Shown: one piece after another, positions 32,897 to 36,910 of the stretch | How the letters are laid out: each line of letters starts with the position of its first letter | Numbering within the stretch: position 1 is the first letter of the stretch | Origin: an uncultured Candidatus Actinomarinales bacterium | Lineage (GTDB): Bacteria; Actinomycetota; Acidimicrobiia; Actinomarinales; Actinomarinaceae | Direction: 5' to 3' | Length of the DNA stretch: 64,000 bases | Assembly (NCBI GenBank): GCA_943840565.1 | Contig: CALSUY010000001.1 | Location: forward strand, 124,001-188,000 | Notes under the pieces: model-generated | Told to the model about the DNA's origin: nothing | Database searches by the model: none | What the model saw: the letters and a program-made list of their open reading frames with translations, nothing else | Translations under genes and position numbers: made by a program

Positions 32897-32970
32897 CCTG
32901 TAATTTTAGTAATTATTAAAGATAGAAGTCTAGATAATCATGGTCTTTTTATATTTTTGATTTGAAACAG

Positions 32971-33020
32971 AAAAGAGAATTCTTTTGTCAGATCTTTATA
33001 AATCTAACGAATCCTCTTTT
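32971..33020. promoter_or_regulatory. Imperfect inverted repeat in the GMC/nuclease intergenic gap
   Basis: The 250-base gap 32897-33146 separates two divergent genes. It contains AAAAGAGAATTC (32971-32982) facing GAATCCTCTTTT (33009-33020), which is 11-of-12 complementary, with a smaller AGAT/ATCT pair inside. A 12-base direct repeat CTCAAAGTTTAG occurs at 33022-33033 and again at 33112-33123, the second in the -35 zone of the nuclease promoter. These may be regulator sites; their role is unknown. Confidence 0.35.
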
Positions 33021-33134
33021 CCTCAAAGTTTAGTAAACATCTACTTCACTTTGTAAAGGTATTGTAAGTGTTTTTGCTGTTTAAAAATGTTTAAAATATA
33101 TTTTTTAATTACTCAAAGTTTAGATGCCTTTTAG

Positions 33135-33140
33135 TATCTT
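33135..33140 (+). promoter_or_regulatory. Candidate -10 box of a leaderless nuclease transcript
   Basis: TATCTT ends six bases before the ATG at 33147, with no ribosome-binding site. One copy of the 12-base repeat CTCAAAGTTTAG (33112-33123) occupies the expected -35 position, so a factor binding there would directly affect polymerase. Confidence 0.45.
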
Positions 33141-33146
33141 TAATAT

Positions 33147-34607
33147 ATGAGCGAAAAGCCATTAAGTTTTTCTACTACAAAAGTTAATAAAATAGCACAA
33201 TGTCCTGGATCCGAATATAAGAAATTCAACACAACATATACCCCAAATTCCAACTTACAAAGGTGGAAAAGTATTAATGATGCGATTATAGACTGGTTAG
33301 TAAATCAGGCTCCAAATGAAGTTGCAATCAATCAAGCAGAAGAAAACAACTTCAAATATTTTGACAAGTTACAGCAAAAAATTTCTTCAGAATTATTTTC
33401 GCAGTTTAGAAATATATATCATAAAAATACTGCAGACCTGAATGCAGATTTTCCCAGCAGTAGTATTTCTAAGTTTATAAATGATGAGGAAGTTTTTATT
33501 AATGCTCACACACAATTTGAATTTGAAGATGAAGTCTCTACGGAATATGTAAAGTTAAAAACTGGTAAGAAGGGTGTTAGTGATTTAGACAAAGCAATAA
33601 TTTTAAAAACACGTTTAGAAAATGAAACCTTTTATGTTGCAGATCTTTATAACAACGATTTACTTGAAATTAGCAGTATAGAAAATGCCGATGAGGTAAT
33701 AGATGATAATTTTTTGTTGCTTGAAGGTTTTATCAATGAAAACATAAAGCTTATACCAGGGAATCATTGTACCCTTTGCGAGAGATCATCTTCATGCGGA
33801 GAATATCCCAGTATCAATGGAGAAGGAACTAAGAAAAGTTATAGAGGAATTGTTATTTCTAAAACTAACTTATTAAATAAAGATAATTGTGAGAGACAGT
33901 TCGCATGGAAAACACAATACGGCATTCCGAAAGAAGAAAAAGAGTCCGATCCATTCCCAATGAAAGTTGGAATTAGTTTTCATAAATTCTCTGGAATGAT
34001 GCTTTTAAACAATCAAGATTCTCAAAAATCAGGAGAAATAGAAAGATTGAAAAATTTGCTTAAAGAAGAAGATGGAGAAGTTGCAATAGAAGTAATTAAG
34101 AAATATGAACAACTCTTAAATCAAATTAAGGATTTTAATAATCTTGAAATAACAGCAAGAGAAAGAGTTCTTGGTTTTACTGCAATAACGGATGCAATAG
34201 TTCAAAATAAAAGTCATAAAGTCTATGAGGGTAAAATTGCTGCAACATTTATGGGTTCTGCTGATTTAGTTGGCAGACTGGATGGAGCTCCTCTAGTTGT
34301 AGAACTAAAAACTGGGGCACAGCTTCCTCAACATTCAGCTGAAGCAGAGCTCTATGCATTAGGTGCATTTATTCAAACAAAGGAAAAAGAAGTAGTTGTC
34401 CTTCATATTTATGTAAGTGATAAAGAAGAAAAAATTGTTGAAAGGAGATTTACACACGACCAGATTGAAGCTTTAAAGGAAAAGTTTGATTCAATTGCTA
34501 AAACTATAGGCCAATGGGATCCGAGTGATGCCTTACAACCTGGATTTTCAGAAGGTGATTGGTGTAATTTTTGTGATTTTCAAAAAACTTGTCTTGAATT
34601 TAGATAA
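33147..34607 (+). CDS. Duplicated RecB/Cas4-like Fe-S nuclease with a degenerate first half
   Basis: 486-residue PD-(D/E)XK-superfamily protein that looks like two fused nuclease units. The C-terminal unit (about 232-486) has the ordered motifs of RecB/Cas4/AddB nucleases: C248, GISFH (H279), GSADLVG (D373), VELKTG (E386, K388) and the terminal cysteines C473-x2-C476-x5-C482, forming a four-Cys Fe-S site with C248. The N-terminal unit (about 1-220) repeats the plan: C19 after an LSFSTTKV start, then VKLKTG (135-140), then C208-x2-C211-x5-C217. In it the catalytic Glu is Lys136 and the Asp is missing, so it should bind a cluster without cutting. No CRISPR or RecBCD/AddAB genes are nearby. Cytoplasmic; function unknown, DNA repair likely. 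Confidence 0.75.
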   Translation: MSEKPLSFSTTKVNKIAQCPGSEYKKFNTTYTPNSNLQRWKSINDAIIDWLVNQAPNEVAINQAEENNFKYFDKLQQKISSELFSQFRNIYHKNTADLNADFPSSSISKFINDEEVFINAHTQFEFEDEVSTEYVKLKTGKKGVSDLDKAIILKTRLENETFYVADLYNNDLLEISSIENADEVIDDNFLLLEGFINENIKLIPGNHCTLCERSSSCGEYPSINGEGTKKSYRGIVISKTNLLNKDNCERQFAWKTQYGIPKEEKESDPFPMKVGISFHKFSGMMLLNNQDSQKSGEIERLKNLLKEEDGEVAIEVIKKYEQLLNQIKDFNNLEITARERVLGFTAITDAIVQNKSHKVYEGKIAATFMGSADLVGRLDGAPLVVELKTGAQLPQHSAEAELYALGAFIQTKEKEVVVLHIYVSDKEEKIVERRFTHDQIEALKEKFDSIAKTIGQWDPSDALQPGFSEGDWCNFCDFQKTCLEFR

Positions 34608-34645: not shown

Positions 34646-36910
34646 ATGGATTTATCTAGAACCCAAGTTGAACTAGTTTCAAATGCTTATAAGAAAATAA
34701 TAAATAACATTGAAATTCTTAGAGAGAGAAAAAGTGCTCCACTTACTCTCGCTGAGAAGTTACTCTTTGGTCACGCTAAGGACGTCACAACTATTTCTTT
34801 AAACAAAGGCGAAGATTTTGGAGATTTCCTTCCTGACAGGGTAGCTATGCAAGATGCGACAGCACAAATGGCTATTCTTCAATTCATGCAAGCGGAACTA
34901 CCTAAAACAGCTGTTCCTACAACAGTGCATTGCGACCACCTAATCCAAGCCTATGAAGGTGCTAATAATGACCTTCAGGTGGCCAATAAAACCCATAAAG
35001 AAGTTTTTGATTTTTTGAGGTCTTCATCTGAAAAATATGGCATCGGTTTCTGGGGACCAGGAGCTGGAATTATTCACCAAGTTGTCTTGGAGCAATATGC
35101 CTTTCCAGGTGGAATGATGATTGGTACTGACAGTCACACTCCAAATGCAGGTGGAATAGGAATGATAGCTATAGGTGTCGGTGGAGCTGATGCTGTTGAT
35201 GTTATGGCGGGCATGCCATTTAATACAAAAATACCAAAGTTAATTGGTATAAAACTTACAGGCTCAATAAGTGGATGGACCGCTCCAAAAGACATAATTT
35301 TAAAAGTTGCCGAAATATTAACTGTAAAAGGGGGGACAAATGCAATTGTCGAATATTTTGGAGAAGGAACAAAAACTATATCCACTACTGGTAAAGCAAC
35401 AATTACAAACATGGGAGCTGAGATTGGAGCAACATGTTCAGTATTCCCTTTTGATGAAAAAGGTAAAGACTACTTAATCGCTACAGATAGAGAAGATTTA
35501 GCTAACTTAGCTGCAGAGAATATGGATATTCTTACTGCTGATGAGGAAGTATTGGAGTCTCCAGAAAAATATTTTGATCAAGTTATAGAGATTAATCTTG
35601 ATTCATTAGAGCCACATATAGTAGGTCCTCACACACCAGATTTAGCAAGACCGGTCTCAAAGTTAAAAGAGGATGCACTCAAGAATGAATATCCAATAGC
35701 TATATCCAGTGCATTAATCGGTTCGTGTACAAATTCATCTTATGAAGATATTGGAAGAGCAGCATTTATTGCACGTGAAGCTGCAAAAAAAGGACTTAAA
35801 TCAAAAGTTCCTTTGATGGTCACTCCTGGCTCAGAACAAACTAGAGCAACAATTGAAAGAGATGGTTATTTAAAAGATTTGGAAGCAATTGGTGCGACAG
35901 TACTTGCAAATGCTTGTGGACCTTGTATCGGACAGTGGAAAAGAGATGATATCAAAGAAGGAGAGAGCAACTCAATTGTATCTTCTTACAATAGGAACTT
36001 TCCAGCTCGTAATGATGGCAATGCAGAAACTTTATCTTTCATTGGATCACCTGAAAGTGTTATTGGACTTGCCTTAGGAGGATCTCTTGATTTCGACTTT
36101 TTATCTGAAACTCTTACCAACGAGAATGGGGAGGAAGTAAAGTTAACCCCTCCTGTTGCAGATGAACTTCCTTCAGAGGGGTTTGAACAAACTCTTGAGG
36201 GATTTATTCAACCTTCTGAATCTACTGAGGGTATTGAAGTAATTATTGATCCCAACTCATCTAGGCTGCAAGTATTAGAGCCATTTGAAGAATTTAATAA
36301 AAATAACTACGACTCTTTAACTGTGTTAATGAAAGCAAATGGAAAATGCACAACAGATCATATTTCTCCAGCTGGTAAGTGGCTGCAGTTTAGAGGCCAC
36401 CTAGAAAATATATCTCAAAATTTATTTATTGGTGTCAATAATTCCTATACAACAGATTCAGGAATGGGAAATAATCTATTAACCAATGAAATTATGTCTC
36501 TACCAGATCTTGCAAAAAGTTATCATGAAAACTCTATCAACTGGATAGCAATTGGAGATGAAAACTATGGTGAAGGTTCTTCTCGAGAACATGCTGCTAT
36601 GGAACCTAGGTTTCGAGGTTGCAAAGTAGTCCTTGTAAAAAGCTTTGCAAGAATTCATGAAGCAAATTTGAAAAAACAGGGCATACTGCCTTTAACATTC
36701 GACAATAAAGATGATTATGAATTAATTGAACAGGATGATAAGTTAACAATTGAAGATCCTTCTAACATAGAGCCTGAAAAGCAGGTGATTGTCAATATTG
36801 AAAAATCTGATGGTAAAATTTTAGCTATTGCAACCAACCACTCACTATCCGATGAACAGATAACATGGTTCAAAGCTGGATCGGCCTTAAATTATATAAA
36901 ATCTAGTTAA
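34646..36910 (+). CDS. acnA: Aconitate hydratase (mitochondrial-type)
   Basis: 754-residue aconitase converting citrate to isocitrate through a labile [4Fe-4S] cluster. The cluster ligands are C361 (GSCTNSS), C424 and C427 (CGPC). The substrate-binding segment GTDSHTPNAGG and the swivel-domain motif NYGEGSSREHAA are intact. The length and ligand spacing match the shorter, mitochondrial-like aconitase rather than the roughly 900-residue bacterial AcnA/IRP1 type common in actinobacteria; the gene symbol is therefore loose. It supplies substrate for the icd product encoded 28 kb away. The stop overlaps the pdxH start by one base (TAATG). Confidence 0.96.
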   Translation: MDLSRTQVELVSNAYKKIINNIEILRERKSAPLTLAEKLLFGHAKDVTTISLNKGEDFGDFLPDRVAMQDATAQMAILQFMQAELPKTAVPTTVHCDHLIQAYEGANNDLQVANKTHKEVFDFLRSSSEKYGIGFWGPGAGIIHQVVLEQYAFPGGMMIGTDSHTPNAGGIGMIAIGVGGADAVDVMAGMPFNTKIPKLIGIKLTGSISGWTAPKDIILKVAEILTVKGGTNAIVEYFGEGTKTISTTGKATITNMGAEIGATCSVFPFDEKGKDYLIATDREDLANLAAENMDILTADEEVLESPEKYFDQVIEINLDSLEPHIVGPHTPDLARPVSKLKEDALKNEYPIAISSALIGSCTNSSYEDIGRAAFIAREAAKKGLKSKVPLMVTPGSEQTRATIERDGYLKDLEAIGATVLANACGPCIGQWKRDDIKEGESNSIVSSYNRNFPARNDGNAETLSFIGSPESVIGLALGGSLDFDFLSETLTNENGEEVKLTPPVADELPSEGFEQTLEGFIQPSESTEGIEVIIDPNSSRLQVLEPFEEFNKNNYDSLTVLMKANGKCTTDHISPAGKWLQFRGHLENISQNLFIGVNNSYTTDSGMGNNLLTNEIMSLPDLAKSYHENSINWIAIGDENYGEGSSREHAAMEPRFRGCKVVLVKSFARIHEANLKKQGILPLTFDNKDDYELIEQDDKLTIEDPSNIEPEKQVIVNIEKSDGKILAIATNHSLSDEQITWFKAGSALNYIKSS

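Follow-up and report, generated by a model that had tools for sequence, protein, structure and literature searches.

Pseudo-enzyme halves are well known, but an apparently dead RecB/Cas4-type unit that keeps its cluster ligands beside a live one, in a short chain free of helicase domains, would be a simple test case. A gene predicted to encode such a protein lies in the window analyzed here, a 64,000-nucleotide stretch (G000:C1:124001-188000) of a four-contig, 640 kb assembly from Candidatus Actinomarina, a streamlined marine actinobacterium, of the class Acidimicrobiia by established taxonomy. The locus raises the question of whether the first half of the protein is a nuclease fold at all and, if so, what a dead nuclease with a retained cluster site still does.

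Architecture of the Tandem Nuclease

The gene and its two units are as follows.

33147..34607, + strand: tandem RecB/Cas4-like Fe-S nuclease gene (predicted), an ATG open reading frame of 486 amino acids
33147..33824, + strand: N-unit, residues 1-226, predicted pseudo-nuclease of RecB/Cas4 fold with its metal site lost (AlphaFold2 model of the unit alone and structure matches)
33825..34604, + strand: C-unit, residues 227-486, predicted active PD-(D/E)XK nuclease (PF12705 and structure matches)

The open reading frame and the 13 residues named in a first-pass annotation are all found where it placed them, and the eight cysteines it cited (C19, C208, C211, C217, C248, C473, C476, and C482) are all the cysteines of the protein. 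In both units, a four-cysteine pattern, C...C-x2-C-x5-C, flanks the nuclease core. This pattern is present in 35 of 35 aligned homologues, comprising 27 sequences from Actinomarina and close kin and eight that belong to other Acidimicrobiia and are 23-27% identical. Loss of the cysteines in orthologues would have refuted the first-pass annotation; instead, the full set of eight is kept down to 23% identity and is no chance feature. Only L076 lacks one of them, C19, and there the contig ends, hence the denominator of 34 for that residue. Orthologues at 40-45% identity are full length, at about 480-490 amino acids, with no internal stops.

A Pfam family search detected no helicase domain in the 486 amino acids, and a PDB sequence search with the protein returned no relative. 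The full-length AlphaFold2 model (pLDDT 70.3, pTM 0.51) places the N-unit and C-unit relative to each other with low confidence. Within each half, however, the model runs in the same order of strand, helices, strand run, helix, two strands, helix, and cysteine motif, and both units align to one reference domain (9iac residues 7-274 and 7-249). Taken from sequence and models, the protein is predicted to comprise two homologous RecB/Cas4-type folds in one chain, with one metal site and two cysteine sites.

The N-Unit Has Lost Its Predicted Metal Site

Residues 1-226 have no family match in Pfam, NCBIfam, or PADLOC beyond noise such as Triabin. Predicted alone, the N-unit gave an AlphaFold2 model with a pLDDT of 77.6 and a pTM of 0.72, whose best Foldseek match in the PDB is ACE1 (9iac, E 1.6e-6), with AdnA, Cas4 SSO0001, AddA, Dna2, and RecE among the other top matches. 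By VIA-align, the model matches 9iac with a Z of 11.9 over 205 residues, and rows 1-41 are all RecB/Cas4-type and related nucleases. The restriction-endonuclease-like fold previously proposed for this half is therefore borne out by a prediction run on the half by itself. Four conserved features stand out in the N-unit.

33201..33203, + strand: C19, first cysteine of the putative N-unit cluster site, in 34 of 34 homologues reaching it
33261..33266, + strand: R39-W40, at the head of the helix corresponding to the C-unit motif I helix, invariant in 35 of 35 (model helix 35-52)
33552..33560, + strand: K136-L137-K138, former (D/E)xK motif with the acid changed to Lys/Arg; K/R at 136 and K138 each in 35 of 35
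33768..33797, + strand: C208-x2-C211-x5-C217, second half of the putative N-unit cluster site, in 35 of 35

Position 136, the equivalent of E386 in the C-unit, is Lys in 24 and Arg in 11 of the 35 homologues and acidic in none. Position 123, the hairpin-register equivalent of D373, varies among Gln, Ala, and Thr in the same set, and position 44, the equivalent of H279, among Asn, His, Arg, and Trp. With Lys or Arg replacing the acid, the N-unit lacks the D...(D/E)xK metal site, in agreement with the first-pass view of a dead unit in which Glu had become K136 and no metal-binding Asp was left. Of the VKLKTG motif that had been singled out, the replaced acid and K138 are conserved features, but the terminal 'TG' is not, as LKTA, LKAG, and LKVG are seen in homologues. 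L137 and K138 are invariant in the genus alignments; L075, a relative outside the 35-sequence set, has Val at 138. One further candidate ligand was considered: hhalign pairs D128 with D373, and D128 is invariant within Actinomarina. It was rejected as a surviving metal ligand because it falls within the turn of the hairpin and the rest of the class does not conserve it. As judged from alignments and models, the N-unit has lost its metal ligands yet kept its predicted fold and cysteine site.

The C-Unit Is the Predicted Live Half

The C-unit matches PF12705 over residues 242-482 (E 1.9e-10; 41.6 bits against a cut-off of 22), as do 20 of 20 members of homologue set A1. In comparisons of its model with the PDB, AdnA (Z 13.2) and ACE1 (Z 12.6) are found together with Dna2 and AddAB. 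Its predicted cluster and catalytic residues are as follows.

33888..33890, + strand: C248, N-terminal cysteine of the putative C-unit cluster site, 35 of 35
33981..33983, + strand: H279, motif I histidine, 35 of 35
34263..34265, + strand: D373, metal-binding aspartate, 35 of 35
34302..34310, + strand: E386-L-K388, predicted active (D/E)xK motif (386: Glu 30, Asp 5; 388: Lys 33, Arg 2)
34563..34592, + strand: C473-x2-C476-x5-C482, remaining three cysteines of the putative C-unit cluster site, 35 of 35

H279, D373, E386, and K388 are invariant in the genus alignments, and the metal-site residues are present in all Actinomarina members. The domain match and this conservation uphold the earlier assignment of a RecB/Cas4-like C-unit built on these four residues and four cysteines. 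Three relatives (L065, L075, and L076) carry Arg in place of the C-unit's catalytic Lys, giving E-H-R or E-C-R. Catalysis in these proteins is therefore in question, and the second unit of these lineages may be weakened or dead too.

Duplication or Fusion of Two Units

Compared half against half, BLAST and single-sequence hhalign gave nothing significant over length. Profile comparison of the halves reached a best P of 3e-5, and a second alignment gave 3.5e-4. The half-versus-half profile score is 20.0 with the cysteines masked and 11.8 with the cysteines and KTG masked, the best of 40 column shuffles scoring 19.6; since the match rests on the Cys and KTG columns, it was not used as proof of duplication.

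The same genome encodes a single-unit PF12705 protein (L085, G000:C1:512827-513558) of the same fold family, with Cys motifs shared by both proteins, which differs from the tandem nuclease in having one unit and a C-terminal extension. L085 is far nearer the C-unit (hhalign P 1.1e-5) than the N-unit (P 0.006). The N-unit profile scores 33.8 against the C-unit, 26.5 against this single-unit nuclease, and at most 19.4 against unrelated proteins of the window. The internal duplication proposed in the first-pass annotation is compatible with the N-unit being nearer the C-unit than L085, but it is unproven, as the signal vanishes when the motifs are masked. Duplication is the favored and plausible origin; alternatively, the two units may have arisen as paralogues that were fused.

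Distribution and Selection

A profile search of 296 genomes of the class found the two-unit protein beyond Actinomarina in families f10, f7, and f20. The open frames of these relatives are mostly about 476-496 amino acids, with a truncated copy in f2. With a broader profile, the Acidimicrobiia relatives outside Actinomarina match nearly the whole model length, while 396 phylum genomes gave weak and partial matches, chiefly to the C-unit region within other proteins. In the searches run, every complete two-unit protein came from the class Acidimicrobiia. These searches yielded no N-unit-only protein apart from two short or disrupted copies, L073:292-1335 and L074:4552-5574 (genomes G137 and G215), in which the N-unit is kept and the C-unit lost, which may reflect truncation, frameshift, or assembly error. 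No relatives turned up in viral contigs or in phage or plasmid records, and a phage origin was not supported.

Each half shows pairwise dN/dS values of about 0.01-0.12, and divergent members of the genus are on average 47% identical in the N-half and 49% in the C-half. These values indicate that both halves are under purifying selection, with the dead half as constrained as the live one. Purifying selection on the N-unit implies, in turn, that the dead half has a function. In the literature searched, a limited library, no description of tandem Fe-S RecB/Cas4 units was found. The tandem live/dead Fe-S nuclease is thus apparently new, although kindred nuclease families are already known.

Genomic Setting

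The gene is followed by a conserved neighbor.

34646..36910, + strand: acnA, aconitase gene, downstream neighbor (name assigned from its sequence)

The gap between the nuclease gene and acnA is 35-38 bp in 14 of 14 Actinomarina loci checked, and the two genes are probably co-transcribed. On the upstream side, the distance to the GMC oxidoreductase gene varies widely among Actinomarina loci, from 28 bp to more than 5 kb. Positions 32897-33146 of the window and the matching gap in L025, L044, L115, L119, and L121 form a hypervariable insertion spot in Actinomarina. As assigned from sequence, L025 has a type I restriction-modification set here and L044 has a cytosine methyltransferase, while other loci carry proteins that look secreted or surface-exposed. 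For the Actinomarinales, flexible islands have been described, of which some hold restriction-modification systems, and CRISPR is reported to be absent (PMC7771536).

The nuclease gene is present in the great majority of genomes with a readable site, and its divergence tracks that of the neighboring genes. In three genomes (G003, G004, and G011), acnA is present and the nuclease gene is absent, with G004 and G011 retaining the other upstream genes too; the other genomes without a nuclease match mostly lack an intact acnA region. The three absences indicate that loss is tolerated, so that the enzyme is not essential for repair.

No conserved partner or repair neighbor was found across the families examined. 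Most Actinomarina genomes encode a single UvrD-family helicase of about 715 amino acids. No helicase-nuclease of the AddAB, AdnAB, or RecBCD type was seen in these small genomes; as the assemblies are incomplete, this absence is provisional. In f10 genomes, a fusion of a UvrD helicase with a Cas4-like Fe-S nuclease domain (L066:8154-11444, - strand; partly also in L067 and L070) is encoded on the same strand, one or two genes from the tandem nuclease. An anti-correlation with AddAB/AdnAB was considered, and strict complementarity was rejected because of this fusion. The earlier description of a stand-alone gene with no helicase neighbor is therefore right as regards the window and the genus, and f10 departs from it. 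In genome G121, an 831-residue open reading frame (L065:6784-9279, - strand) overlaps the start of the tandem nuclease; it has no Pfam match, and a McrBC component lies nearby.

Comparison with Known Nucleases

AddB carries a four-cysteine cluster site with the spacing C...C-x2-C-x5-C around its nuclease fold, and the cysteine sites of the tandem nuclease are alike. AdnA and AddAB are also among its best solved-structure Z matches. However, the nuclease domains of AddB and AdnA/AdnB are helicase-fused, while the tandem nuclease has no SF1 helicase domain. For the dead nuclease domain, RecC is a better comparator than AddB. To our knowledge, RecC retains no cluster site; the tandem nuclease has cysteine sites in both units. 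In RecC, the dead nuclease domain is preceded by dead helicase domains, whereas the tandem nuclease has a dead nuclease domain and no helicase domains. RecB and RecC of RecBCD (PMC1185551) share with the tandem nuclease one live and one dead RecB-type PD-(D/E)XK domain on the same DNA, but theirs lie in separate chains with helicase modules, unlike the one helicase-free chain of the tandem nuclease. The dead nuclease domain of RecC passes ssDNA, and the DNA-binding modes of the RecB-type nuclease fold vary widely (PMC1185551).

Cas4 proteins, including the solo Sso0001, share with the tandem nuclease the size of each unit, the cluster site, and, in the C-unit, the predicted exonuclease residues, but they are single units rather than two (PMC3466216; PMC5704561). 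Sso0001 is a 5'-3' ssDNA exonuclease with a stabilizing 4Fe-4S cluster, and the cluster cysteines of Cas4 are required for folding, with Cys-to-Ala variants being insoluble (PMC3466216). Identity as a CRISPR Cas4 is not supported, as TIGR00372 scores 26.8 against a cut-off of 65 bits and cas1 is present in 0 of 39 genus genomes, consistent with the earlier statement that there is no CRISPR neighbor. ACE1, an Argonaute-associated Cas4 family protein (PDB 9iac and 9iab), is the best Foldseek match of both models; it is a single unit tied to Argonaute, whereas Piwi was found in 0 of 39 genus genomes, and an Argonaute association is likewise not supported. Since the genomes are incomplete, the absences of cas1 and Piwi are provisional. 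A catalytically dead Cas4-like fold in a new role is also seen in the virus TTV1, in which an inactivated Cas4 has turned nucleocapsid protein (cited in PMC5704561), although that protein is viral, a single unit, and structural.

Proposed Function and Alternatives

The preferred reading, to which we give about an even chance, is a helicase-free Fe-S nuclease, most likely an exonuclease and a single-chain counterpart of the RecB/RecC pair, whose C-unit trims DNA while its dead N-unit holds it, with a role in repair or recombination in small genomes. Judging from the chemistry of Cas4 and AddB, the C-unit would degrade or trim single-stranded DNA ends (PMC3466216). The N-unit, stapled by its own cluster, would have a basic pocket of R39, W40, K/R136, and K138 where metals would sit; in analogy to RecC beside RecB, it would bind DNA without cutting and hold or feed the strand to the C-unit (PMC1185551). 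The protein would serve DNA-end processing in repair and recombination, in genomes where no AddAB, AdnAB, or RecBCD-type helicase-nuclease was seen. DNA binding by the N-unit is inferred from this analogy; the repair role is an inference as well. Points against this reading are the low-confidence placement of the two units, the tolerated loss of the gene, the want of a conserved repair neighbor, the Arg substitutions in some C-units, and the variety of DNA-binding modes of this fold (PMC1185551). A more specific and rather doubtful version sees an undescribed family confined to Acidimicrobiia, in which a one-chain, helicase-free protein with two cluster sites uses the basic-for-acid swap to grip DNA metal-free and steer it into the active unit, as a minimal RecB/RecC pair. 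A dead unit with its cluster ligands beside a live one would be a simple system for the role of an Fe-S cluster after catalysis is lost and for DNA handling by a dead nuclease fold, and it would give very small marine genomes a candidate enzyme for end processing.

The main rival reading, unlikely though not far-fetched, keeps the same anatomy but assigns the protein to defence: an accessory nuclease, retained at the border of a variable island that can hold defence genes, would break down phage or plasmid DNA entering the cell. The restriction-modification and methyltransferase genes on the hypervariable upstream side (L025 and L044), the absence of the gene from three genomes, and the McrBC component near the distant relative L065 are in keeping with defence, as are the defence-linked Cas4-like/UvrD fusions (PMC5704561) and a Cas4-like nuclease that limits plasmids in S. 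elongatus (PMC10653904). Yet the gene sits on the conserved side of the island, at its fixed distance from acnA in each locus checked, and is present in the great majority of genomes with a readable site; its PADLOC matches are weak, to generic Cas4/DruK. Because its position is stable, its divergence follows that of its neighbors, and phage, viral, and plasmid relatives were not found, repair and recombination are ranked before defence.

Two further explanations would leave the DNA work entirely to the C-unit or deny the N-unit any active part. An improbable one makes the N-unit a protein-docking or redox-sensing module that recruits a partner or reports cluster state. Cas4 does act docked on Cas1/Cas2 (Cas4-Cas1-Cas2 complexes are among the structure matches), the N-unit site is kept without catalysis, and the adjoining acnA encodes another Fe-S protein; the Lys/Arg charge reversal and the conservation of K138 and R39-W40 nevertheless better suit nucleic-acid binding, and no partner gene is conserved across families. 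The first-pass suggestion of a DNA-binding or regulatory platform is divided by these data: the conserved basic residues fit DNA binding, but kept cysteines alone do not imply regulation, because Cas4 and AddB need the cluster as a staple for folding (PMC3466216). In the related protein 3L0A, zinc occupies the equivalent four-cysteine site (PMC3466216). The N-unit cysteines may be a mere structural staple. That the whole N-unit is only a scaffold, its stapled fold packing on the C-unit for stability, is a long shot: it accords with the folding requirement in Cas4 (PMC3466216) and with the low-confidence placement of the two units in the full-length model, but a pure scaffold would not be expected to keep R39-W40 and K136/K138 invariant where the active site used to be, and nucleases that resemble the C-unit in fold act as single units.

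Separately from the tandem gene, three loci encode a single-unit Cas4-like protein of about 250 amino acids (L119:3300-5172, L121:3519-5356, and L115:4694-5434), of which the L115 copy matches PF12705. Its gene is preceded in L119 and L121 by small genes of 175-178 and 104-110 amino acids, and in L119 it adjoins a DNA methyltransferase. From its gene content, this set is possibly a small defence or mobile module.
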